Assembly (NCBI GenBank): GCA_016182795.1
Contig: JACPFW010000030.1
Location: 1 to 64,000, forward strand
Source of the DNA: Gemmatimonadota bacterium
GTDB lineage: Bacteria > Gemmatimonadota > Gemmatimonadetes > Gemmatimonadales > Gemmatimonadaceae
DNA: 64,000 bases
Direction of reading: 5' to 3'
The number at the start of each line of letters is the position of its first letter. Position 1 is the first letter of the stretch. Shown here piece by piece: positions 29,426-57,745 of this stretch. The notes beneath the pieces are model-generated. The model was not told the origin of the DNA. It did no database searches and saw only the letters and a list, made by a program, of their open reading frames with translations. Made by a program: the position numbers and the translations under genes.

Positions 29426-30142
29426 ATGACGCGACACGATGCCGTCGAGGAAGCGGCCGTCTGGCTCGAGGTGAACGGCGAGAGCGCCGTCACCTGGATG
29501 TGCACCCCCGACCAGCTCCCCGAACTCGTCACGGGCTGGCTGTATGGCGAGGGATACATCGATTCCCTCGCCGACCTGCAGTCGCTCCGCCCCTGCGCCC
29601 TCGAGCTGGGCTTCTGGGCCAAGGTACCGCGCGAACGGTACGAGACCGTGGAGGGGACGGAACGCCGCCGCGTGCTCGCCAGCGGCTGCGGCGCCGTCAC
29701 CACCATCCTCGGCTCGCTCTCCAACGTGCCACGGCGCACCACGCCGCCGGTGATTCCCGATCTCGCTCACACGCGCAAGCTCTTCAAGGAGCTGTTCGCC
29801 AAAGGGGTGCGGTACAGCGACACGGGCGGCATCCACGCCGCCGCGCTCACCGACGGCGAGACGCTGCTGGCGCACGCCGAGGACATCGGCCGCCACAACG
29901 CGGTCGACAAAGTGCTGGGCGCAATGCTCATGGCGGGGCGCCGCCCCGACGACCTCACGCTCCTCGTCACCGGGCGCATCTCCGGCGAACTCGCCTTCAA
30001 GGCGGCGCGGGCGCGGCTCGCGGTGGTGGCGACGCCCAGCGTGCCGAGCACATTGGCGGTGGACATTGCCGCCGCCGCCGGGATGGCGCTGGTGGGTCGC
30101 GCCGTTTCGGGCGAGCCGCAAGTGTGGATGGCGGGCGCGTGA
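29426..30142 (+). CDS. fdhD: FdhD-type sulfurtransferase for molybdoenzyme maturation
   Basis: 238 residues. Family motifs: LVTGWLYGEGYI near residue 35, a loop Cys in ASGCGAV, GGIHAAAL, EDIGRHNAVDK and TGRISGELAFKAARA. FdhD passes sulfur to the molybdenum cofactor of formate dehydrogenases. The usual C-x2-C loop has only its first Cys here, and the N-terminus is shorter than in E. coli. It leads the molybdenum-cofactor gene run. No formate dehydrogenase lies in the window. Confidence 0.9.
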   Translation: MTRHDAVEEAAVWLEVNGESAVTWMCTPDQLPELVTGWLYGEGYIDSLADLQSLRPCALELGFWAKVPRERYETVEGTERRRVLASGCGAVTTILGSLSNVPRRTTPPVIPDLAHTRKLFKELFAKGVRYSDTGGIHAAALTDGETLLAHAEDIGRHNAVDKVLGAMLMAGRRPDDLTLLVTGRISGELAFKAARARLAVVATPSVPSTLAVDIAAAAGMALVGRAVSGEPQVWMAGA

Positions 30143-30161
30143 TGACACGCGGCGGCCGGCG

Positions 30162-30761
30162 ATGACGGGCGCACTTCCGTGCGTCGGCGTGATCCTCGCC
30201 GGCGGCGCGGCGTCGCGCTTTGGCGGTGAGCCCAAGGGTCTGCGCGTCGTCGACGGTCGGCGCATCATCGACCGCGTCGCGTCCGTGCTGCGTCCGCTCA
30301 CCGACGAGCTGCTGCTCGTGGCCAATCATCCCGACGCGCCGACCTGGCTGCCGGGCATTCGCACGGAATCCGACGTGCGGCGCGGCGACGGGGCGCTCGG
30401 CGGACTCCACGCCGCGCTCACGCACGCGGGGGGCCGCGCCGTGCTCGTAGTCGCATGGGACATGCCGTATGCGAGCGAGGGACTGCTGCGCGCGCTGCGC
30501 GCGCTGGGTGAACGAGACGCCGACGCCGCAGTGCCCGAGAGCGAGACCTCGGGGCGCGGCGTCGAACCGCTGTGCGCCTGGTACGCGCCGGCGTGCCTCG
30601 CCGCCATCGAACGGCGGCTCAACGCCGGCGACCGGCGCGTGGTCTCGTTCTTCGACGACGTGCGCGTGGCCCACCTGCCGGCCGCCGAGGTGTCGCAGTG
30701 GGGAGATCCGGCGCGCATCTTTTTCAATGTGAATTCTCCGGACGACCTTCCGCCGGGCTGA
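30162..30761 (+). CDS. mobA: Molybdenum cofactor guanylyltransferase
   Basis: 199 residues. The nucleotidyltransferase signature is at the N-terminus (VILAGGAASRFGGEPKGL, residues 9-26) and AWDMPYAS carries a metal Asp. It transfers GMP to molybdopterin to make the bis-MGD cofactor in the cytosol. The ATG at 30162 begins the domain directly. The gap to mobB is 4 bases. Confidence 0.92.
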   Translation: MTGALPCVGVILAGGAASRFGGEPKGLRVVDGRRIIDRVASVLRPLTDELLLVANHPDAPTWLPGIRTESDVRRGDGALGGLHAALTHAGGRAVLVVAWDMPYASEGLLRALRALGERDADAAVPESETSGRGVEPLCAWYAPACLAAIERRLNAGDRRVVSFFDDVRVAHLPAAEVSQWGDPARIFFNVNSPDDLPPG

Positions 30762-30765
30762 CGCC

Positions 30766-31296
30766 ATGACGCCACCGCTCCTCTCGATCACGGGCAAGAA
30801 GAACTCGGGCAAGACCACGCTGGTGGTGCGCCTCGCTGACGCGCTCACGCGCCGCGGCGTGCGCGTGATGACCATCAAGCACGGGTCGCACACGTTCAAC
30901 ATGGACCCGGTGAACACCGACACGTACCGCCACTATCACGAAGGGCAGGCCGAGCGCGTGGCGATGATCTCACCCGACAAGTTCGCGCTGGTCGAGCGCT
31001 GGGAGCAGCCGCTGACGCCGGAGCAGGTGGCCGCGCGGCACATGGCCGACGCCGACCTCGTGCTCTGCGAAGGATTCAAGGCGACCGACCTGCCGAAGGT
31101 GGAGGTCTTCCGCCGCGCGGCGCACGCGGAGCCGCTGTACGATCCGGCCCTCGCCAACGCCGCCGCATGGCGCGCGATGGTGACTGACGGGCCGATCGAC
31201 AACCTGCCCTTCCCCGTCTTCCGCCTCGATCGCGACGGCTGGCTGCCGGCGCTCGCCGACTGGGTCGAACTGCACTTCGTCTCGCGCAGGGGCTGA
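30766..31296 (+). CDS. mobB: Molybdopterin-guanine dinucleotide biosynthesis adaptor protein
   Basis: 176 residues. A Walker A at the N-terminus (ITGKKNSGKTTLVVRL, residues 6-21) is followed by the family motifs TIKHGSH and LCEGFKATDLPKVEV. MobB is a GTP-binding helper of MobA. It is tightly packed between mobA and dacB. Confidence 0.93.
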   Translation: MTPPLLSITGKKNSGKTTLVVRLADALTRRGVRVMTIKHGSHTFNMDPVNTDTYRHYHEGQAERVAMISPDKFALVERWEQPLTPEQVAARHMADADLVLCEGFKATDLPKVEVFRRAAHAEPLYDPALANAAAWRAMVTDGPIDNLPFPVFRLDRDGWLPALADWVELHFVSRRG

Positions 31297-31299
31297 CCG

Positions 31300-32793
31300 A
31301 TGCGCCGTCTCGTTCTGTTTGGCAGTGCCCTCGCCGCCGCGTGCGGCGCGTGGGGCGGTCCGTCGCGGCCGTCGCCAAGCGGTGAGCGCGCCGCGTTCCG
31401 CCGCGCGGTGGATTCGATGGTCGCGCAGCCCGTGTTCCGCAATGCGAACTGGGGCATCGTCGTGGTCGACCCAGCTCGCGGCGACACGCTCTACTCGCAC
31501 AATGCGGGCAAGCTGTTCATGCCCGCGTCCAATCAGAAGATCCTGACCGGCGCCACCGCGCTCAACCAGCTCGGCGCCGAGTTCCGCTTCCGCACCGACT
31601 TCGCCGCCAACGGCGCGTTGGTGAACGGCTCGCTGCGCGGCGACCTCGTCGTCATCGGCCGCGGCGATCCGACATTCAGCGACGCCGCGTTCGGCGACGC
31701 CATGAAGCCGCTGCGCGCCGCGGCCGATTCGCTCTCGGCGCGTGGAGTGCGCGAGATCGCCGGCGCGCTCGTGCGCGGCGGCGATGCCTTCCCCGACTCG
31801 ACGCTCGGGTTCGGCTGGGCGTGGGACGACCTCGACTACGACTACTCGGCCGGCGTCGATGAGCTGTTCTTCAACGAGGGCTTCGCCCGCGTCACCGTGC
31901 TCGCGTCACCGACCGCCGGCGGCCCAGCCACGGCGCGCACCGCGCCGGCGCGTACGGTGCCGCGCATCGGCCGCGTTTCCGTGGTGACCGGCGGGATGAT
32001 GGACCCCGAAGCACGCCAGGCGAATCGCGTGATGTGGGAGACCGACATTCGCGGCCCGCGGCCGCTGCTGAACCTTTCGGGTTTCGTGAAGATGCGCGAC
32101 AGCAGCCGTGTGTCGGTAGCCATTCGCAATCCGGCGCAGGCGTGGCTCGACGCGTTCGCCGAGGCACTCGCCGACCGCGGGATTGTCGTGCGCGGCAATG
32201 TGATCACCGAGCCCGCTGCGGACACCGCCGGCCTCACGCATCTGTTCACCCTGCGGTCGCCGCCGCTGCGCACGATTCTGCCGCTGTTTGAGAAACCCTC
32301 TCAGAATCAGATTGGCGAGATCCTGTTTCGCACGCTCGGCCTCGAGAAGACCGGCGTCGGCACGCCCGACAGCGGACGTCGCGTGGTGCAGCGCCAACTC
32401 ACCGCCTGGGGGGCCGACACGGCGGGGCACGCGGTGCGCGACGGCAGCGGCCTGTCGCGTCACGATTACGTGACGCCCGAGACGATCGTGCGCGTGCTCG
32501 ATGCCATGCGCAAACACGCCGACTTTACGGCGTTCTACAACGCGTTCCCCATCGGCGGCGTCGATGGCACCATTGCGTCGCGGATGCGCGGGACGCCGGC
32601 GCAGGGGAACGTGCACGCCAAGACGGGCACCGTCGATAAGGCGCGCAGCCTCTCCGGCTACGTCACCGCGCCCGACGGCCGGCTTCTGCTGTTCAGCTTC
32701 CTGTGCAACAACTTCACCGTGCCCAACAGCGCCGTGGAGGCCGTGCAGGATGCCATCCTCGTCCGGCTCGCGTCGCCGGGCGCGCCGCGGTAG
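31300..32793 (+). CDS. dacB: D-alanyl-D-alanine carboxypeptidase/endopeptidase (PBP4, S13 family)
   Basis: 497 residues with an N-terminal signal segment. The three penicillin-binding motifs are present: S-x-x-K in MPASNQKILTG (about residue 70), S-x-N in PSQNQIGEIL (about residue 330) and HAKTGTVDKA (about residue 440). It trims or cuts peptidoglycan peptides in the periplasm. It sits oddly inside the molybdenum-cofactor operon, 3 bases after mobB and 5 before moeA, so it is probably co-transcribed without a functional link. Confidence 0.93.
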   Translation: MRRLVLFGSALAAACGAWGGPSRPSPSGERAAFRRAVDSMVAQPVFRNANWGIVVVDPARGDTLYSHNAGKLFMPASNQKILTGATALNQLGAEFRFRTDFAANGALVNGSLRGDLVVIGRGDPTFSDAAFGDAMKPLRAAADSLSARGVREIAGALVRGGDAFPDSTLGFGWAWDDLDYDYSAGVDELFFNEGFARVTVLASPTAGGPATARTAPARTVPRIGRVSVVTGGMMDPEARQANRVMWETDIRGPRPLLNLSGFVKMRDSSRVSVAIRNPAQAWLDAFAEALADRGIVVRGNVITEPAADTAGLTHLFTLRSPPLRTILPLFEKPSQNQIGEILFRTLGLEKTGVGTPDSGRRVVQRQLTAWGADTAGHAVRDGSGLSRHDYVTPETIVRVLDAMRKHADFTAFYNAFPIGGVDGTIASRMRGTPAQGNVHAKTGTVDKARSLSGYVTAPDGRLLLFSFLCNNFTVPNSAVEAVQDAILVRLASPGAPR

Positions 32794-32798
32794 CGCGA

Positions 32799-34055
32799 AT
32801 GCTCAGCGTCGCGGAAGCGGTCGCGCGGGTCGTTGGCGACGTCACCGTACTCGGTGACGAGCGGGTGCCCCTGCTCGACGCCGCGGGGCGCGTGCTCGCC
32901 GCGGATGTGCGCGCGAGCTACACGCTCCCGGCGTGCGACAACTCGGCGATGGACGGCTATGCGGTGAAGTCGTCGGAGCTGGCCGGCGCGAGCGCCGAGT
33001 CGCCGCGCCAGTTTCGCGTGGTGGAGACCGTCGCTGCCGGCCGGTTCCCGACGCGCCCCATTGAACCGGGCGAGGCGACCCGCATCATGACCGGCGCGCC
33101 ACTGCCGATGGGCGCCGACACCGTGGTCCGCGTGGAAGACACCGATGGCGGCGTCGCGGCGGTGCGCGCGCTGAATGATCGCGACTGCGGCAAGAATGTG
33201 AGGCCGCGCGGCGAGGATTTTCGCGCCGGCGACATTGTGCTCGCGGCCGGCGAGCCGATTGGCGCGGCACAGGTCGGCGTGCTCGCCTCGCTCGGCGTGG
33301 CGCAGGTGCCGGTGCACCGCGCGCCGCGCGTGGCGATACTCGGGTCCGGCGACGAGTTGGTGGACCTCGACCAGTTCGACCGCGTCGTGGCCGGCGAGAA
33401 GATCGTTGCCTCCAACAGCTACACGCTGCACACCCTTGTTCGCGCCGCCGGCGGCGTGCCGGTGCCGCTCGGCAATGCGCTCGACACGCCCGAGTCGATG
33501 CGCGAGATCTTCTCTCGCGCTGTCGACGCCAGGCCTGACCTGATCATCAGTTCGGCCGGCATTTCCGTGGGCGAGTTCGACTACACGCGCGACGCACTCG
33601 GCAGCCTCGGCGCCGATCTCAAGTTCTGGAAGGTGCGCATGCGCCCGGGCGCGCCAATCGGCTTCGGCAGCATCGCCGGCATTCCATGGATTGGCCTCCC
33701 CGGCAACCCGGTGTCGGTGATGGTGACGTTTGAACTCTTCGCACGCCCGGCGATTCTGCGGATGCTCGGACATGCACGGCTGCATCGGCGCCCTCTGCCC
33801 GTAACGCTGGAGGAGCCCGTGAAGATAGGCGCGCGCCTCACGCATTTCCTGCGCGCCATCGTGACGTCGCAGCCCTCCGGCGCGCTCACCGCGCGGCTGA
33901 CCGGCCCGCAGGGATCGGGGATTCTCACGTCGATGGCGCGCGCCAATGCCCTGCTCATCGTCCCCGAGGACCGTGCGTCGAGCGCGGCCGGCGACACGCT
34001 GTCGGCGCTGCTCCTTTCGCCGAGCGCCCAGCTCGCCGAGCGCTTCGCGCTGTGA
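32799..34055 (+). CDS. moeA: Molybdopterin molybdenumtransferase
   Basis: 418 residues, full length for MoeA. Motifs: CDNSAMDGYAV (residues 46-56), RIMTGAPLPMGADTVVRVED, the MoCF-like SSAGISVGEFDYTRDAL and LPGNPVSVMV. It inserts molybdate into adenylated molybdopterin. The start ATG is 5 bases past dacB, and the stop overlaps the next gene's GTG start (GTGA). Confidence 0.95.
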   Translation: MLSVAEAVARVVGDVTVLGDERVPLLDAAGRVLAADVRASYTLPACDNSAMDGYAVKSSELAGASAESPRQFRVVETVAAGRFPTRPIEPGEATRIMTGAPLPMGADTVVRVEDTDGGVAAVRALNDRDCGKNVRPRGEDFRAGDIVLAAGEPIGAAQVGVLASLGVAQVPVHRAPRVAILGSGDELVDLDQFDRVVAGEKIVASNSYTLHTLVRAAGGVPVPLGNALDTPESMREIFSRAVDARPDLIISSAGISVGEFDYTRDALGSLGADLKFWKVRMRPGAPIGFGSIAGIPWIGLPGNPVSVMVTFELFARPAILRMLGHARLHRRPLPVTLEEPVKIGARLTHFLRAIVTSQPSGALTARLTGPQGSGILTSMARANALLIVPEDRASSAAGDTLSALLLSPSAQLAERFAL

Positions 34056-50027: not shown

Positions 50028-50912
50028 CTACCCTCGGGCCCGCGCGAAAGCGGCGATGTGCGCCGGCGTCGTTCCGCAGCAGCCACCGACGATCGCCGCG
50101 TGGCGCGCGAGTTCGAGCAATGCCGGTGCAAGGCTCTCCGGACCGCGCGGATACACGATTGCCGTCCCCTCCAGCCGCGGCTGGCCGGCGTTTGGCTGCA
50201 GCATCAACGGCGCGTCCGTCACCGCCGCCATCTCGCCGGCCACCGCCACAAAGTCCTCCGGCTCCATCCGGCCGCAGTTCGCGCCAATCACGTCGGCGCC
50301 GGCCGCCGCGCACGCGCGCGCGCCGTCCGCCGGCGAGACGCCCATCATCGTCCTGAATCCACCGCCGCGCACGGGATCATACGCCATCGACGCCGCCACC
50401 AGCGGCGCGCCAAGCTCGCGCGCCAGACGCACGCCGAGCGTAATCTCATCGAGCGCCGTCATCGTCTCGAAGATGATGCCAGCGACCCCGACGTCGAGCA
50501 TGGCCTGTATCGCCAGGCGCCACGTCTGGCGCAGCGCGTCTTCGGAGATCTCACCCAGCGGCTCGAGAAACCCGCCGCATGGTCCGATGTCCCCGAGGAC
50601 GTAGGTGTGTGGTCCCGCCGCGGCCCGCGCGTTCATCGCCGCCGCGCGCGCAATCTCGGCGACCTGTTCAGCGAGGTCGTAGCGCGACAGCACAAACTGG
50701 TTGGTCCCGAACGTATTGGTCAGCAGAATCTGCGCGCCGGCTTCCGCATACCGTCGCTGAATCGCCTGCACCGCCGCGGCGTGCGACAGGTTCCATTCGT
50801 CGCCGCAGCCACCCGGCTCGAGGCCTGCAAGCTGCAGTTCGGTGCCCATGCCGCCGTCGCCCACAAACGTCGCGCCGCCACGCAGCGCGTCGAGCAGGAG
50901 CGGCCGCGTCAT
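50028..50912 (-). CDS. Homocysteine S-methyltransferase domain protein
   Basis: 294 residues, a stand-alone homocysteine-binding barrel like BHMT or the first domain of MetH. The three zinc Cys ligands are visible: GANCGRM and GGCCGT near the C-terminus, and DGGMGTELQ marks the N-terminus. It methylates homocysteine to methionine; the methyl donor is not fixed by the family. As the last gene of a corrinoid operon (3 bases after the UroD-family gene), it may take the methyl group from the methylated corrinoid protein. Confidence 0.88.
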   Translation of the reverse strand: MTRPLLLDALRGGATFVGDGGMGTELQLAGLEPGGCGDEWNLSHAAAVQAIQRRYAEAGAQILLTNTFGTNQFVLSRYDLAEQVAEIARAAAMNARAAAGPHTYVLGDIGPCGGFLEPLGEISEDALRQTWRLAIQAMLDVGVAGIIFETMTALDEITLGVRLARELGAPLVAASMAYDPVRGGGFRTMMGVSPADGARACAAAGADVIGANCGRMEPEDFVAVAGEMAAVTDAPLMLQPNAGQPRLEGTAIVYPRGPESLAPALLELARHAAIVGGCCGTTPAHIAAFARARG

Positions 50913-50915
50913 CGA

Positions 50916-52109
50916 TTATCGCGGCGTGCTGTCATACCGCCCCCACGTCTCCGCCGCCTCGCGCAGCACCATGATGTTGGCCGGCGGCGCGGCCGGCGAC
51001 ACCGAGCAGGCCGTGCTCAGAATGTACCCGCCCCCCGGCGCGGCGATCTCCAGCCGTCCGCGCGCCGCGGCGCGCACGTCATCGACGGAGCCGAACAGCA
51101 CCGTGTTCACGGGATCGAGGTTTCCCTTGATGAACATCCGACCCTTCGTCTGCGCCACCGCCTCGGCGAGGTCGACCGTGCCGAGCGGCGGCGGGTCGAG
51201 CGTATCGATGCCCTGCGTGTGCGTCGCTTCCATAAGGTCGAGCCGGTCGCCGATGGCGCCGCACGTGTGCGTGTAGATGGGGATGTCGTGCTCCGCGTGA
51301 ATCCCGTCAATCACCTTGCGCTCATAGGGCAGCACGAACTGCGCGTAGTGATCGCGCGAGATGAGCCCCGCCCCGGCAAACGCCGACGAGATGAGCACCG
51401 CGTGCGCGCCGGCGCGCGCCTGCCCGCGACCCAGCTCAATCGCGCCGTCAGCCAGCCGATCCAGACAGGCCTTCACCTTCTCGGGGTCATCGACCAGCGC
51501 CATCAGGCCGCTGGTGTAGTCGAGCAGTTCCATGAACTGCGCGAAAGGCGAGAAGATCTCGCCGTGCACCGACACCTCCCCGCCGACGCGCCGCACGACC
51601 TCACGAATGGTGTCGTAGTGCCACGGCGGAAAGAACGCCGCGCCGGGCTCGGCCCGCTCGCCGCTGAAGCCCCACGAGTACGGATGCGTGATCGACGACA
51701 GGTCGTGCGGCTCCACGTAGAACAGCTCGTCGGGGTCGATCTCGTCGAACAGCGGGAAGTATCGCGTGCCGTCGGCCTGATACACGTGTGGATTGTCGTC
51801 GGACGGCACCTCGGTGTACCACCCGTTCTTCCAGGTGATCACCCGCTCCTCACCGCGCGTCTCGATCTTGGCGACCGCCTTCCGCCACTCGGGATCGCGT
51901 CCCGGCAGGTTGATCAGAATGCCATCGAATCCGTACCGCTGCTGCAGCCGCACGAGCGCCTCGGCGAAGGCGTGCGTGCCGTGCCAGATCTCGATGGCGT
52001 CGAGCCCCGCGTGCAGGAAGTAGTGGCCCAGCGCGAGCTGGCACATCACCGGCACGCGGTCGGGCACGCCGAGTCGCATGGCGGTGTCCATTCGCTCGCG
52101 ACTGTTCAT
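50916..52109 (-). CDS. UroD-family corrinoid methyltransferase
   Basis: 397 residues in the uroporphyrinogen decarboxylase superfamily, but operon context and zinc ligands place it with the methyltransferases (MtaA, MtvB types) rather than haem synthesis. Putative zinc ligands: His-x-Cys in THTCGAIGD (about residue 270) and a Cys in LSTACSVSP (about residue 372). The His-x-Cys...Cys pattern is that of thiol-activating MtaA-like enzymes. It probably transfers methyl groups to or from the adjacent corrinoid protein. The ATG at 52109 overlaps the small upstream gene. Confidence 0.85.
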   Translation of the reverse strand: MNSRERMDTAMRLGVPDRVPVMCQLALGHYFLHAGLDAIEIWHGTHAFAEALVRLQQRYGFDGILINLPGRDPEWRKAVAKIETRGEERVITWKNGWYTEVPSDDNPHVYQADGTRYFPLFDEIDPDELFYVEPHDLSSITHPYSWGFSGERAEPGAAFFPPWHYDTIREVVRRVGGEVSVHGEIFSPFAQFMELLDYTSGLMALVDDPEKVKACLDRLADGAIELGRGQARAGAHAVLISSAFAGAGLISRDHYAQFVLPYERKVIDGIHAEHDIPIYTHTCGAIGDRLDLMEATHTQGIDTLDPPPLGTVDLAEAVAQTKGRMFIKGNLDPVNTVLFGSVDDVRAAARGRLEIAAPGGGYILSTACSVSPAAPPANIMVLREAAETWGRYDSTPR

Positions 52110-52321
52110 GTGCCTGTTCTCCGCAGCAGGTGATCGCCGCCGCACGTCACGACGTCCGGCGCGCGCCGTTGGTTGACACAGCCGCCCGCAAACGTACACC
52201 GCTCGTCACGGGCACGGTACGGACAGCGCTCGTGGATGCGCTCGACCATGCTCGACGCCACCGCGCTGAGCACTTCCCGCAGCTTCTCGTGCGCGGCGCG
52301 AGTGCGCGCGTCGTCGGTCAC
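52106..52321 (-). CDS. Small Cys-rich protein of the corrinoid operon
   Basis: 71 residues from a GTG. It overlaps the RACE stop as GTGA and the UroD-family start as ATGA, so it is translated as part of the operon and is a real gene. Four cysteines at about 33, 42, 48 and 60 (C-x8-C-x5-C-x11-C) follow an N-terminal helix and could bind zinc or an Fe-S cluster. The family is not recognised. A role beside the activating protein or the methyltransferase is inferred only from position. Confidence 0.72.
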   Translation of the reverse strand: MTDDARTRAAHEKLREVLSAVASSMVERIHERCPYRARDERCTFAGGCVNQRRAPDVVTCGGDHLLRRTGT

Positions 52322-53982
52322 AGTCGCTCCCCAAGCGGAATGGCCGCCATGAACGCGTCCTCATACCCCGGATGGCCGGCCAGTTCGAGATACGCGCACT
52401 CGGCGGCGATGCGTCGCGCCCGCTCGCGCATCCGCGCATCCACCAGCACCATCCGCGCGCCGACGCCCGCCGCATTGCCCACAAAGTGCACGCGCTCCGG
52501 ATCAATGGCCGGCACCAGGCCGATCCCCTGCACCGATTCCTTGCGCACGAAACTGCCGAACGTGCCGGCAATGTGAATCGCGTCGAGCGCGTCGGCACGA
52601 ACGCCGGCGTGCTCCAGCACCAGCGCGATGCCGGCGGCAATGGACCCTTTGACGAGCTGCAGCTGCCGTACGTCCTGCGCGGTCAGCGTCACGTCGCGGT
52701 CAAGGCGCACGCGACGCACGACGCGCGCTTCGCCTGGCCCGCCGGGCGTCTCGATCACACGTTCGCACAGCACCGGATGCACCCCCGCCGCCTCGCACTC
52801 GGCGCGGCTGCGCATGTAGCCGCTTTCGGCAATCACACCCGCCGTGTGCAGCTCGGCCACCGCGTCAATGAGACCGCTGCCGCACAGGCCGCGCGCCGGC
52901 TGGTTCGCCACCGTCCCGACGACGAGCCGTCCACTGCGCAGCACCCGCACGCGGTCGATCGCGCCGGGGGCGGCGCGCATGCCGTGCTCGATGTTCGCTC
53001 CCTCAAACGCTGGCCCGGCCGCGGTGGAGGTAGCGTACAGACCGCGCGCGCTTCCCAGCACCACCTCGGTGTTGGTGCCAAGGTCAATCAGCAGCTGCCA
53101 GTCGGCGGCGCGGTCCATGCCGGTGGCAAGAATCGCCCCTACGGTGTCGCCTCCGATGTGGTGGCCGACCATGGGCAGAAACAGCGCCACGCCCTCCGGG
53201 TGTATCGGCCAGCCGAACTCGCGCGCGGCACGCTCGACTTCCCGCGTGAACGTGCCGCGGTACGGCGCTTGCCCCAAGGGCGTGATGTCGGCACCCACCG
53301 CCGCGTGAGTCATCGTCGCGTTCCCTGCGCACGCCACCGCCACCACCTGTCGCGCGTCGACCGCGTCGCCAGTCAGGTCGGCGATCATTTCGCTGATTGC
53401 CGATACCACGCTCGTGTGCAGCTGCGCATTGCCGTCGGCCCGCTCCTGCGCGAAGTGGATCCGCGAGATCACATCGGCGCCAAAGCGCACCTGTGGATTC
53501 ACGCGTGACGTGATGCCCGCCACGTGGCCGGTGTCCAGCCGCACGAGCGCCGCGGCCAGCGAGGTGGATCCGATGTCCACGGCGATGCCGTACGCATTGC
53601 CCGCATTCCGCGCCGCGCCGCCCGCCATCGAGCCAAAGGACGGCGCAATCCCGTCGCCAAACACCGCGTCATCACCGAATGACTTGGCCGCCGTGGATCG
53701 CGTCTGCGGAGGGATCGTGACCGTCGCGTCGCTGTCGAGCGTGAGTTGGCATCCCAGCCGCCAGCCGTCCGCGCGCTCCGCGTCGGTGAGCAGGCGCTCG
53801 TCGGCACGCGTGGCAGGCGCGTCGCCGCTGACCACGCGCACACGGCACTTGCCGCACGCCGTGCGCGCGCCGCACGGCTGCTCAGTCCAGATGTCGCATT
53901 GTGCCGCCGCGAGAAACAGGTCCACCGCGCCCTCGGACACGGTGGACCGATCCTCGGGGAGGAACCGCACGCGGAAACTCAC
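52318..53982 (-). CDS. Reductive activator of corrinoid enzymes (RACE; ferredoxin + ASKHA)
   Basis: 554 residues. The N-terminal [2Fe-2S] domain has Cys37, Cys43, Cys46 (PCGARTACGKC) and Cys78. After a linker, the large DUF4445/ASKHA ATPase begins near residue 132 (GIAVDIGSTS), with DLGTNTEV, GLCGSGLIDA and IAGTFGSFVRKE further on. Such proteins use ATP and an electron to reduce Co(II) back to Co(I) in corrinoid methyltransferases. The stop of the corrinoid protein overlaps its start by four bases. An electron donor is not encoded nearby. Confidence 0.93.
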   Translation of the reverse strand: MSFRVRFLPEDRSTVSEGAVDLFLAAAQCDIWTEQPCGARTACGKCRVRVVSGDAPATRADERLLTDAERADGWRLGCQLTLDSDATVTIPPQTRSTAAKSFGDDAVFGDGIAPSFGSMAGGAARNAGNAYGIAVDIGSTSLAAALVRLDTGHVAGITSRVNPQVRFGADVISRIHFAQERADGNAQLHTSVVSAISEMIADLTGDAVDARQVVAVACAGNATMTHAAVGADITPLGQAPYRGTFTREVERAAREFGWPIHPEGVALFLPMVGHHIGGDTVGAILATGMDRAADWQLLIDLGTNTEVVLGSARGLYATSTAAGPAFEGANIEHGMRAAPGAIDRVRVLRSGRLVVGTVANQPARGLCGSGLIDAVAELHTAGVIAESGYMRSRAECEAAGVHPVLCERVIETPGGPGEARVVRRVRLDRDVTLTAQDVRQLQLVKGSIAAGIALVLEHAGVRADALDAIHIAGTFGSFVRKESVQGIGLVPAIDPERVHFVGNAAGVGARMVLVDARMRERARRIAAECAYLELAGHPGYEDAFMAAIPLGERL

Positions 53983-54632
53983 GCGCGCGCCGCCTTGAGC
54001 TCCGCCAGCAGGCTCCGCGCCTTGGCCACCGACGACGGCGCGTCGGCGCCGTACGCGTGCGCGCCGATGCTCTCGGCGTAGTCCTCCGAGACCGCCGCGC
54101 CGCCCACCATCACGCGCAGCCGGTCAAACAGCCCCGCCGCACGGAACGACTCGATGTTCACCTTCATCTGCCCCATCGTCGTCGTGAGCAGGGCCGACAT
54201 CCCCACGATGTCGGGGCGATGCTCCTCGATGGCCGCCTGGAACTTGGCGAGCGGCGTGTTGACTCCCAGGTCGATGACCCGGAAACCGGCGCCCTTGAGC
54301 ATCATCCCGACGAGGTTCTTGCCGATGTCGTGGATGTCGCCCTTCACGGTGCCAATCACGTACGTGCCTATCGGTTCGATGCCGCACGCCGCCAGCACCG
54401 GCTCGAGGTGCGCGAGCCCCGCCTTCATCGCCCGCGCCGCCACCAGCACTTCGGGCACGAAGATGATGTTGTCGCGGAACCGCTCCCCCACCACCTGCAT
54501 GCCGGCAATCAGACCCTGCTCAAGGATCGCCGCCGGCGCTCGCCCTTCGTCGAGCGCGTCGCGCGTCAGGCGCGCGACGTCGGCGTCGTGCCCATCAATT
54601 AGGTGCTGAGCGAGTTCGGCAAGGTCGGTCAT
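53979..54632 (-). CDS. Corrinoid (B12-binding) methyl-carrier protein
   Basis: 217 residues, the standard two-domain methyl-carrier of MtaC/MtbC/MtvC type. A helical cap (residues 1-85, LIAGMQVVGERF) is followed by the Rossmann B12 domain with the lower-axial His101 in GDIHDIGKN. It cycles between Co(I) and methyl-Co(III), shuttling methyl groups between the substrate methyltransferase and the acceptor enzyme. The ATG at 54632 overlaps the symporter stop by four bases. Confidence 0.95.
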   Translation of the reverse strand: MTDLAELAQHLIDGHDADVARLTRDALDEGRAPAAILEQGLIAGMQVVGERFRDNIIFVPEVLVAARAMKAGLAHLEPVLAACGIEPIGTYVIGTVKGDIHDIGKNLVGMMLKGAGFRVIDLGVNTPLAKFQAAIEEHRPDIVGMSALLTTTMGQMKVNIESFRAAGLFDRLRVMVGGAAVSEDYAESIGAHAYGADAPSSVAKARSLLAELKAARA

Positions 54633-56428
54633 GGCGTCGGGGGGACGGACAGGGCATTCACTGGCTCGCGCAGCGAATGGAGGATCCCCCACCCGCAGAG
54701 CAGCGACGCGGCCACCAGCGCGGCGCCGCGCAGGGTGCTGCCGAGCAGCAGCTCACCAATGCCAAACAGCGACAGGTAGACGGTGGCGCATCCCAGCACC
54801 CACTGGCGCAGCGACACCCACCCATTGTGGTCAATTCTGACCTCTGGCGCGAGCGCCGCAATGCGCGTCCACCCGCGGCGAGACGGGCGCGTGCGCCGGT
54901 AGAACTCCACCAGCGTCTCCTCGTCGGTGGGCGGCGTCAGGAACGTGACCGCCACCCACACCACGGTCACCACGGCGGTCGTGAGCAGAATTGAATACGC
55001 AAAGAACAGCTGCGCGTCGCGCCCCGTCGCGCCCAGCCCGAACCCTGCCGGCCCCACCACCAGCTGCAGGTACAGCGACGTCGCCGTCGCCGCCAGCATC
55101 GCCGAGATCTCCGACCACGCGCTCACGCGCCACCAGTACCAGCGCAAGATGAAGACGAGCCCCGTCCCCGCGCCGATGGAAAGCAGAATGTCCAGCGCGC
55201 GCGTCACCTGGCCGAGTCGCAGGGCAACCAGTGCGCTCAGCACCATGATGATCACGCTGGCCACGCGCGACACGCCCACATAGTGCGCTTCGCTGGCGTC
55301 CTTCTTGAGATACGGGCGGTACAGATCGTTCACCAGGTACGACGCGCCCCAATTGAGCTGGGTGGAGATGGTGGACATGTACGCCGCGCCAAACGCCGCG
55401 AGCATCACGCCGCGCCACCCGTGCGGGAGCACGTCGGTCATCATCTTCACATAGCCGAGCTCGGGGTCGGCCGTCACGACGGGGTTGCCCGCGTAGTAGA
55501 CCATCGCCGCCAGCCCGGTGAGGATCCACGGCCACGGGCGCACCGTGTAGTGCAGGATGTTGAACGTGAGCACCGCGAGCAGCGACGACTTCTCGTCGCG
55601 CGACGCGAACATCCGCTGCGCCACGTATCCGCCGCCGCCCGGTTCGGCGCCGGGATACACCGCCGCCCACCATTGCACACAGAGGAAGACGGCCAGCGTC
55701 ATCAGCGGCAGATACGCGCCGTCGGTGCGCGGGAAGAACTTCAGCAGCGACGCGGCCGCGTCGCCGTGCGTGCGCACCAGCCCGTCCTGCAGCCCGCCGA
55801 GTCCGCCGACCGCCGCCACGGCGAAGACCGCCAGCGCCACCGACCCGGCCATCGCCAGCAGGAACTGGAAGAAGTCGGTCCACAGCACGCCCATGAACCC
55901 GCCGAGCGTCGAGTAGACCGCCGTGACGCCAATGCACACCATCACGGCCGTCCACTCGTCGATCCCGGTGGTCGACTTGAGCACCTTGATCATCCCCAGC
56001 GTCACCGCGCCGCCGATGATCGCGTTGATCGGCAGGCCGAGGTAGACGGCGCGGAAGATCCGCAGGAAGTGCGCCGGGCGCCCCGAGTAGCGGATGGCGA
56101 CAAACTCGACGTCGGTCATCACTCCCGACCGGCGCCACAGCCGCGCGAAGAAGAAGACGGTGAGCATCCCCGACAGCACGAATGCCCACCAGATCCAGTT
56201 GCCGGCGATGCCGCCGCGGGCGGTGATGCCGGCGACCAGCAGCGGGGTGTCCGACGCGAAGGTGGTGGCGACAATCGAGATGCCCGCCAGCCACCACGGC
56301 ACCGACCGCCCGGCCAGGAAGTAGTTCTCCGTGCTCGTTGACGCGCGCTTTGTGAACATCAGTCCCACGCCGAGGCTCAGCGTGAAGTAAACGCCAACGA
56401 TGAGCCAGTCGATGCGGGCCAGTGTCAT
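54629..56428 (-). CDS. Sodium:solute symporter (SSS family)
   Basis: 599 residues with about 13-14 membrane segments. N-terminal SSS features: TENYFLAGRSVPWWLAGISI and VATTFASDTP (residues 33-61). It imports an organic solute with Na+. Immediate coupling to a corrinoid protein gene (ATGA overlap) suggests it brings in the methylated substrate of the system, as SSS or BCCT carriers do for betaines. The substrate is unknown. The gap to the preceding barrel gene is zero bases. Confidence 0.92.
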   Translation of the reverse strand: MTLARIDWLIVGVYFTLSLGVGLMFTKRASTSTENYFLAGRSVPWWLAGISIVATTFASDTPLLVAGITARGGIAGNWIWWAFVLSGMLTVFFFARLWRRSGVMTDVEFVAIRYSGRPAHFLRIFRAVYLGLPINAIIGGAVTLGMIKVLKSTTGIDEWTAVMVCIGVTAVYSTLGGFMGVLWTDFFQFLLAMAGSVALAVFAVAAVGGLGGLQDGLVRTHGDAAASLLKFFPRTDGAYLPLMTLAVFLCVQWWAAVYPGAEPGGGGYVAQRMFASRDEKSSLLAVLTFNILHYTVRPWPWILTGLAAMVYYAGNPVVTADPELGYVKMMTDVLPHGWRGVMLAAFGAAYMSTISTQLNWGASYLVNDLYRPYLKKDASEAHYVGVSRVASVIIMVLSALVALRLGQVTRALDILLSIGAGTGLVFILRWYWWRVSAWSEISAMLAATATSLYLQLVVGPAGFGLGATGRDAQLFFAYSILLTTAVVTVVWVAVTFLTPPTDEETLVEFYRRTRPSRRGWTRIAALAPEVRIDHNGWVSLRQWVLGCATVYLSLFGIGELLLGSTLRGAALVAASLLCGWGILHSLREPVNALSVPPTP

Positions 56429-57745
56429 CTAGAACCTCGGGTTCACGACATTGTTGTAGATCGACCCGAACGTATAGCTCACGCCAACCGACATCGAGTA
56501 CTCGTATCCGGTGAGCAGCGCCCGGCGGCGCAGCAGCACGTCGGCCGCCGTCTGCTCGCCGCGCGGCAGGTACAGCTGGTCGTGGATCCACTCGTACCGC
56601 GCGCCGGCATTGATGCTGAATCCGCGGAACACGCGCACGTTGAAGTTGCCGCTCACCTGCGTGCTGCGCTTGGAGGGGTCAGTAAGCACGCTCACGTGCT
56701 CGCCGTAGAAGTTGGCGCCGCCCCACGGCTGGTTGGTGCGATACTCGATTTCCGTCCGCTGGCGCGGCACCGACTCGCGAATCTTGTTGAAGATCGTCGT
56801 GTCGGCGTACTGGTAGTTCGTGTATCCCACGCCGTAGCGCACCAGCAGCTTGCGGCGCGTGGCCTCCGCATACTGCAGAACGCTGTACTCCACGGCGGCC
56901 AGGCCCTCCACGCGCAGGTCCTGATTGCGGAACGTCTGCGACGCCACCTCAAAGAAGCCGCCCACCGACAGGTGCCCGGTGATGCTCTTCACCTGGAGCA
57001 AGTCGGCGGACCAGTCGCGCTGCAGGCTCGTATACGTCTCTTGCGACGTGATGGTGCCGAGACTGTCGTACTCGATCGCCGTCGCCCGGTTGTCACGGTA
57101 CGAGTGCGATAGGTCCGCTTCGGTCTTCCATGCCTCGGTCACGCGGCGGGCAGAGAATCGGGAGTAGACGTTGCGGCTCCTGTAGTACTCTTCGCCGCTG
57201 GTCGAGCCGCCGAGGCTCACCGAGAAGACCCACGCGTCCCATTTGTCGGCGGCCCGCGTCGTCTGCCCGTTGGTGGCCTTTACCGTCTTGTCGGTGCTGA
57301 TGCGCAAGCTCGTCGACACCGGCGTATGGGCGGCGAACGGCACGAGGCCCATGGCGATGGTATTCAGCACGCCACGACGGCGCTCGTCATTGGTGCTCGT
57401 GGCATTGCTGACATACGTCAGGGTGTCCCCGCGCCCGGCAAAGGCGCGTGCGCCAAGCAGCGCAATGGTGAACTCCTGCCCGGCCCCCGCCCCCTGGCTC
57501 GTGACCAGCACGTGCACGTCCGACTCCAGGCGATACCGCACCCAGTTCACCCAGCTGATCTCGGTGCGAATCAAGTCGCCGTCGCACCCACTGCGGCAGT
57601 CGAGGTAGACGGCGAGCGGCGTCTTGGACTGCGGCTTCGCCTGGGCGTCGGCCAAACTCGGCGCGGCGCCCAGAACACATAAGGCGAGCATGGCGCGCGC
57701 GGCCGCAGCGCCGGCGCGAAAGAATTCGCGTGAAGACATCGACAT
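56429..57745 (-). CDS. Outer-membrane beta-barrel protein of unknown family
   Basis: 438 residues. A signal segment (about residues 8-28, ending ADAQ) precedes a small N-terminal domain with two close Cys (LDCRSGCDGD). A long run of amphipathic strands follows and ends VNPRF, with a terminal Phe as in outer-membrane barrels. It is directly joined to the symporter gene, so it may start the corrinoid operon and could be an outer-membrane route for the substrate; this is inference. The ATG at 57745 or the one two codons later is the start. Confidence 0.7.
   Translation of the reverse strand: MSMSSREFFRAGAAAARAMLALCVLGAAPSLADAQAKPQSKTPLAVYLDCRSGCDGDLIRTEISWVNWVRYRLESDVHVLVTSQGAGAGQEFTIALLGARAFAGRGDTLTYVSNATSTNDERRRGVLNTIAMGLVPFAAHTPVSTSLRISTDKTVKATNGQTTRAADKWDAWVFSVSLGGSTSGEEYYRSRNVYSRFSARRVTEAWKTEADLSHSYRDNRATAIEYDSLGTITSQETYTSLQRDWSADLLQVKSITGHLSVGGFFEVASQTFRNQDLRVEGLAAVEYSVLQYAEATRRKLLVRYGVGYTNYQYADTTIFNKIRESVPRQRTEIEYRTNQPWGGANFYGEHVSVLTDPSKRSTQVSGNFNVRVFRGFSINAGARYEWIHDQLYLPRGEQTAADVLLRRRALLTGYEYSMSVGVSYTFGSIYNNVVNPRF

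Follow-up and report, generated by a model that had tools for sequence, protein, structure and literature searches.

Homocysteine modules that share a corrinoid protein with a demethylase are already known from the split MetH of Phaeobacter inhibens (PMC5764234) and the MtgBCDE system of Ruegeria pomeroyi (PMC12478193). We analyzed a 64,000-nucleotide stretch of DNA (the window) from a Gemmatimonadota bacterium (contig JACPFW010000030.1), in which a preliminary description had recognized a seven-gene corrinoid methyl-transfer operon on the minus strand, at 57745-50028. The genes encode, in order, a barrel-like exported protein, an SSS-family symporter (SSS), a corrinoid protein, a RACE-type reductive activase (RACE), a 71-residue protein with four cysteines (Cys71), a UroD-superfamily methyltransferase (UroD), and a homocysteine S-methyltransferase (HMT). 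That description knew of no characterized system with exactly this set. The statement held insofar as no paper combining a UroD donor enzyme and a homocysteine acceptor in one operon was found in the literature covered, which leaves out most subscription papers, but the idea of a homocysteine module on a shared corrinoid protein had been published.

MtgBCDE resembles the operon in using a separate corrinoid protein for the demethylase and the homocysteine module (MtgE, PF02574), in RamA-type reactivation, and in its dependence on B12. The PF02574 module was found here, whereas the MttB-family donor (PF06253), the pterin protein MtgD, and DUF1638 were absent; UroD stands in place of MtgB, MttB-family proteins being donor-side enzymes (PMC12478193), and the genes form one operon, whereas those of MtgBCDE are scattered. 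The split MetH of P. inhibens likewise has an HMT module, a B12 module, and a RamA-like reactivase as separate proteins (PMC5764234), but its donor is methyl-folate, supplied via a pterin module, whose place is taken here by UroD in a host that has a full MetH besides. Type 1 mlp clusters (PMC10418091) have in common with the operon a His-Cys-Cys UroD-superfamily methyltransferase, a corrinoid protein, RACE, and the lack of a folate methylase. They encode two or three Mlp proteins, occur in anaerobes, and are not described as having HMT in their core, whereas this locus carries the triad in one distant UroD, with HMT and SSS, and its single UroD gene does not provide the Mlp2 and Mlp3 that define the type. 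In the O-demethylase and Cdm systems (MtvABC, OdmABD, MtoABCD, and CdmBCA; PMC13222342), a UroD-family first methyltransferase (MT1) also works with a corrinoid protein and a reductive activator; however, the acceptor is a tetrahydrofolate or tetrahydromethanopterin enzyme of a kind (MtrH/MtvA type) not found here, and the zinc ligands are different or absent. The core methionine synthases MesA-MesC (PMC7857596) also make methionine independently of folate, probably from methyl-corrinoid proteins, but with a MetE-type catalytic domain instead of PF02574 and with corrinoid from the Wood-Ljungdahl pathway or methanogenesis.

A conserved six-gene unit

Gene content, conservation, motif identity, the swapping of donor genes, and the absence of a folate-type partner suggest that the last six genes probably form a dedicated donor:corrinoid:homocysteine methyltransferase that takes up a methylated solute and uses its methyl group for folate-free methionine synthesis. 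All seven open reading frames were read at the expected place, with the close junctions that had been claimed: 0 bp between the TAG stop of the barrel gene and the ATG of SSS, 4-bp overlaps (ATGA or GTGA) at SSS/corrinoid, corrinoid/RACE, RACE/Cys71, and Cys71/UroD, and a 3-bp gap between UroD and HMT. The most likely start of the corrinoid protein is ATG 54632, which yields the 4-bp overlap, and not GTG 54692.

A search for the gene order in other genomes, as the preliminary description had proposed, recovered SSS-corrinoid protein-RACE-Cys71-UroD-HMT in five other genomes of the genus, with 52-89% protein identity; the operon is therefore not a chance arrangement. Genes of relatives were called with a simple codon-usage caller and BLAST, and many of these genomes are metagenome-assembled. 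In the five genus relatives, other genes stand before SSS, and none of the relatives examined has a barrel homologue beside the operon. The conserved unit thus has six genes, 56428-50028, and the barrel gene is local: Pfam and NCBIfam searches with it gave no match, and it probably does not belong to the system. Of the seven-gene system first described, six genes stood. In one genus member (G031), the operon has decayed, with approximately the first 256 codons of SSS fused into the last third of UroD, the corrinoid protein, RACE, and Cys71 lost, and HMT broken across two frames (this wreck may be a misassembly); in three more genomes of the genus, no UroD was detected. The function of the operon is therefore dispensable.

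Exchange of the predicted donor enzyme beside a constant HMT gene

The strongest evidence for the roles of UroD and HMT came from comparing neighborhoods. MttB-family proteins stand on the donor side of corrinoid methyl transfer. In genome G199, an operon with the order MttB-activation-domain protein (PF02965)-corrinoid protein-HMT was observed, and two Acidobacteriota genomes (G424 and G757) carry an operon identical except that UroD occupies the MttB slot. Because MttB would supply the methyl group in an operon that contains only MttB, the corrinoid protein, and HMT, HMT is predicted to be the acceptor enzyme; because UroD sits in the MttB position of an otherwise identical operon, it is predicted to be the donor-side enzyme. 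G109 has UroD-IclR-MttB followed by MttB-corrinoid protein-RACE-activation-like protein-HMT-small protein, an order that spans two contig ends abutting within the MttB gene, so that the join is a deduced one. In G080, a different UroD (26% identity) precedes the corrinoid protein, RACE, an activation-like protein, HMT, and a small protein. UroD, Cys71, and HMT stay together in G283 and G190; UroD adjoins RACE-HMT in G158, while G314 has RACE-HMT without this UroD.

At every locus that combined this UroD with corrinoid partners and an acceptor, the acceptor gene was HMT, which favors transfer to methionine over the other alternative of the preliminary description, transfer to another thiol. Synteny with a folate-type acceptor, named beforehand as the finding that would speak against the proposal, was not found with this UroD; corrinoid protein-RACE-pterin clusters of the folate type do occur in the phylum, in a different class (family f11) and without it. 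UroD was present in 14 of 395 Gemmatimonadota genomes (one as a fragment) and RACE in 22 of 395; the two occurred together in 11 genomes against 0.8 expected (hypergeometric p ~3e-13, kinship ignored). By genus, RACE was found in 6 of 7 genera with UroD and in 15 of 138 genera (p ~4e-6, kinship ignored). A plasmid search returned only distant UroD proteins, one of them with cobalamin-dependent and ASKHA proteins and no HMT. In phylogenetic trees, the corrinoid proteins of UroD loci fell mostly into one clade (97/93), apart from the MttB- and pterin-linked ones and with G184 as an exception, which suggests partial co-evolution of the corrinoid protein with the donor enzyme, together with some exchanges. 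The HMTs of the genus were monophyletic (100/100) and joined those of G283 and G190 weakly (80/78).

The SSS gene adjoins UroD or lies close to it in the genus, in G184, G158, and G199, and, across phyla, in G640 (Acidobacteriota); in G190, it is divergent from corrinoid protein-RACE at the same locus. The SSS-UroD loci of G199 and G640 contain no corrinoid gene, and the G199 genome lacks RACE. Since the linkage persists without a corrinoid gene, SSS appears to be linked more closely to UroD than to HMT, and presumably imports the UroD substrate.

Related loci showed several further arrangements. Directly before the O-type UroD operon of G080 (L067, contig C3, 6223-14760, minus strand) lie D-mannonate oxidoreductase and mannonate-dehydratase-like genes; the zinc position of this UroD reads His-X-Asp, its second Cys is absent, and the genes that follow encode a corrinoid protein, RACE, an activation-like protein, HMT, and a 111-aa protein. 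This locus may encode a corrinoid-dependent O-demethylase that acts on a methylated uronate (4-O-methylglucuronate?) and passes the methyl group to homocysteine; in the literature covered, no precedent for corrinoid 4-O-methylglucuronate demethylation was found. A conserved protein of ~110 aa ends RACE-activation(-HMT) operons in three genera (L060, 6314-6652; L066, 4481-4810; L067, 6223-6558); the L060 copy had no Pfam match. Stand-alone PF02965 proteins lie between donor and corrinoid genes at L065 (7861-8520), L101 (9772-10476), L102 (9768-10481), and L064 (842-1576). RACE is missing from the same loci, where a reactivator of the S-adenosylmethionine (SAM) type may replace it. In G184 (L032 and L076, contig C1), two tandem PF02574 genes lie beside a GcvT-like gene, ~240 kb from the UroD locus.

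The UroD protein and its predicted donor

A 14-member profile aligned the predicted zinc triad of UroD, His281-X-Cys283...Cys368 (H281-T-C283 and C368), with the His-X-Cys and Cys ligands of MtaA (4ay7). The AlphaFold model (pLDDT 83, pTM 0.89) matched the same structure with a TM score of 0.81 by target length. The H, C, C triad was invariant in 27 subfamily members from two phyla, including members without corrinoid partners, and the surrounding blocks HTCG, LDPPP, and ACS were kept; neither a carboxylate-type ligand nor a missing Cys was observed. By its URO-D family and its MtaA-like triad and fold, UroD qualifies as a predicted MT1 of the UroD/MttB/MtaB type. Because its scores lay far below the cut-offs (59.2 bits against 302.95 for HemE, which it therefore is not; 98.7 bits against 235.4 for mtaA_cmuA), the sequence places UroD outside the MtaA, MtbA, CmuA, and HemE subfamilies. 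PDB sequence and fold searches returned HemE and MtaA as neighbors and gave no substrate.

A His-Cys-Cys site has been read as favoring sulfur or selenium, whereas in O-demethylases the ligands are carboxylates or have been lost (PMC10418091). The zinc ligands therefore favor a thioether, a sulfonium, or another soft methyl donor, as a lead and not a proof; N-methyl betaines may also serve. The FAO_M domain of dimethylglycine oxidase was found in 0 of 19 host genomes, a weak test given that other demethylation routes exist, and this betaine clue was dropped.

HMT, corrinoid protein, RACE, and Cys71

The predicted zinc-thiolate residues of HMT are C213 and C278-C279, within invariant NCG and GGCCG motifs. 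Its best solved match was the N-terminal module of Thermotoga maritima MetH (1q7m, 2.5e-41), and that to BHMT was weaker (5e-14). By match strength, HMT is thus nearest to MetH/HMT modules and not to BHMT. The corrinoid protein contains the DxHxxG motif and a helical cap (Table 1); its best NCBIfam models were MtgC/MtbC, under their cut-offs, and its closest solved structure was 1y80. RACE has the Fer2, RACo middle, and C-terminal domains of a reductive activase and is AcsV/RACo-like, with 3zyy as structural match. Cys71 gave no match in Pfam and NCBIfam searches. It lies between RACE and UroD in six genus genomes and in G283, and directly upstream of UroD in G190; its four Cys were invariant in the eight sequences compared. 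AlphaFold was confident only in the N-terminal helix and uncertain in the Cys-rich tail. Cys71 is possibly an accessory of UroD and HMT that binds metal through the four Cys.

Methionine and one-carbon background of the host

A profile search of the genome found a complete MetH (1116 bits across positions 3-1182) with a normal B12 motif (DVHDIGK), adjoining an HMT-MTHFR fusion on another contig. This ruled out the operon as the only methionine synthase; since the host carries an intact MetH, the operon is better taken as an accessory, methyl-scavenging route to methionine than as an essential synthase. In G158 and G184, MetH was not detected and MetE matches were present. The pterin-binding domain (Pterin_bind, PF00809) occurs once in the host genome, within MetH, so that the corrinoid protein of the operon has no dedicated folate acceptor. 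The preliminary description had noted the lack of an MtrH/MtvA-type folate enzyme in the operon; the search bore this out, with no enzyme of the MtrH, MtvA, or MtgD type detected in the operon or elsewhere in the genome and none of the genus genomes searched encoding a free-standing pterin methyltransferase. MTTB (PF06253) was not found in the host genome or in six genus relatives. The RACE of the operon is the only one in the host genome. With PF00809 present only in MetH, dihydropteroate synthase was not detected in the host or its genus relatives; several genomes from other families of the class differ in having it.

Proposed mechanism and alternative explanations

The direction of transfer, the acceptor, the protein contacts, the transport, and every catalytic step are predicted as follows. 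SSS would import the methylated solute, and UroD (MT1) would bind and activate it at the His-Cys-Cys zinc site. Attack by Co(I) of the corrinoid protein would give CH3-Co(III), from which HMT, the second methyltransferase (MT2), would pass the methyl group to homocysteine thiolate on its own zinc, forming methionine. RACE would re-reduce accidentally oxidized Co(II), using ATP and its 2Fe-2S domain, and Cys71 would assist UroD and HMT.

Several observations weigh against this proposal. UroD, the corrinoid protein, and RACE all score below the NCBIfam cut-offs of every characterized subfamily, and no substrate-specific gene neighbors the operon. The HMT of G184 lies outside the UroD locus, and the UroD of G199 is far from the corrinoid-HMT genes. 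Solitary relatives of UroD (L010, L097, L098, and L038) have no corrinoid, RACE, or HMT gene nearby, and an Acidobacteriota clade (L105-L114, 42-44% identical) shares the His-Cys-Cys triad and likewise lacks these genes in its vicinity. Because some relatives stand alone, UroD need not always feed HMT, and the family is broader than the operon.

Enzymes of PF02574 include S-methylmethionine:homocysteine methyltransferases, and UroD resembles the methylcorrinoid:thiol methyltransferase MtaA in both zinc triad and fold. The roles might thus be reversed, with HMT demethylating an imported methylsulfonium (e.g., S-methylmethionine) onto the corrinoid protein and UroD methylating a thiol as MtaA and MtbA do. 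We consider this unlikely, since the G199 operon retains HMT with MttB donating and UroD absent from the locus, UroD fills the donor position in otherwise identical operons, and SSS goes with UroD and not with HMT. It is similarly improbable that the operon is a catabolic demethylase whose methyl groups end in the folate pool via MetH or its pterin module, with HMT merely topping up methionine like MtgE beside MtgBCD. Such an arrangement would fit the occurrence of folate-type clusters in the phylum and the use of one MtgC by MtgB/MtgD and MtgE in Ruegeria (PMC12478193). However, no MtgD-like protein occurred in any genus genome searched, and the missing FAO_M domain in the 19 host genomes points, weakly, the same way.

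Co(I) takes methyl groups very poorly from methionine, and the linked importer and the swapping with MttB demethylases indicate a direction opposite to a biosynthetic one. There is accordingly very little to recommend a backward flow of methionine or SAM methyl groups through HMT, the corrinoid protein, and UroD to a substrate, although corrinoid methyltransferases can be reversible and a proposed cobalamin-dependent estrogen methylation channels SAM-derived one-carbon units (PMC7448270). Internal recycling is another distant alternative: in a split-MetH-like module with UroD in the place of the folate enzyme, methylthio by-products would become methionine and SSS would be incidental. For Mlp clusters that combine UroD, a corrinoid protein, and RACE, a role in methionine salvage has been proposed (PMC10418091), but SSS and UroD stay linked from genus to genus and in Acidobacteriota, also at loci that have no corrinoid partners.

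If the donor:corrinoid:homocysteine assignment holds, methyl groups of environmental donors go directly into methionine, without passing through folate, in uncultured Gemmatimonadota and in some Acidobacteriota. The recently described connection of osmolyte demethylation with methionine synthesis, known from MttB-type systems of marine Proteobacteria, would then reach further phyla, which use another family of donor enzymes. The operon would also be a compact, expressible gene set for finding the donor, and the comparison offers a testable rule, an HMT acceptor with an exchangeable donor. To a broader form of the proposal we give slightly less than an even chance: the corrinoid protein and HMT would be a constant chassis into which a donor enzyme is plugged (the new His-Cys-Cys UroD subfamily, MttB, or the O-type UroD beside uronate genes), a folate-free methionine platform across Gemmatimonadota and Acidobacteriota with Cys71 as an undescribed accessory. 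Methyl groups, including those from a new class of UroD substrates, would then go into methionine.

Operon coordinates and other features of the window

Table 1. Genes of the operon in the window, in order of reading.
Feature	Coordinates	Strand	Evidence
Barrel-like exported protein, 438 aa	56429..57745	-	Open reading frame with signal-peptide-like start; abuts SSS
SSS-family sodium:solute symporter, 599 aa	54629..56428	-	PF00474, 5.1e-41
Corrinoid protein, 217 aa from ATG 54632	53979..54632	-	PF02310/PF02607; B12 motif GDIHDIGKN
RACE/RamA-type ATP-dependent corrinoid reductive activase, N-terminal 2Fe-2S domain	52318..53982	-	PF14574, PF17651, PF00111
Cys71, 71-aa four-Cys protein	52106..52321	-	No family; position and invariant Cys
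UroD-superfamily methyltransferase, 397 aa, predicted donor:corrinoid protein MT1	50916..52109	-	PF01208, 2.8e-44
HMT, 294 aa, predicted acceptor-side MT2	50028..50912	-	PF02574, 6.6e-54

An Rfam search for cobalamin and SAM riboswitches found nothing in the window or in 12 related loci, and riboswitch control of the operon was dropped. Elsewhere in the window, FdhD-, MobA-, MobB-, and MoeA-like genes, identified by eye from the translations, cluster at 29426-34055. Cytochrome/EtfAB and NrfD/4Fe-4S genes, recognized in the same way, follow this cluster up to 49 kb of the window.

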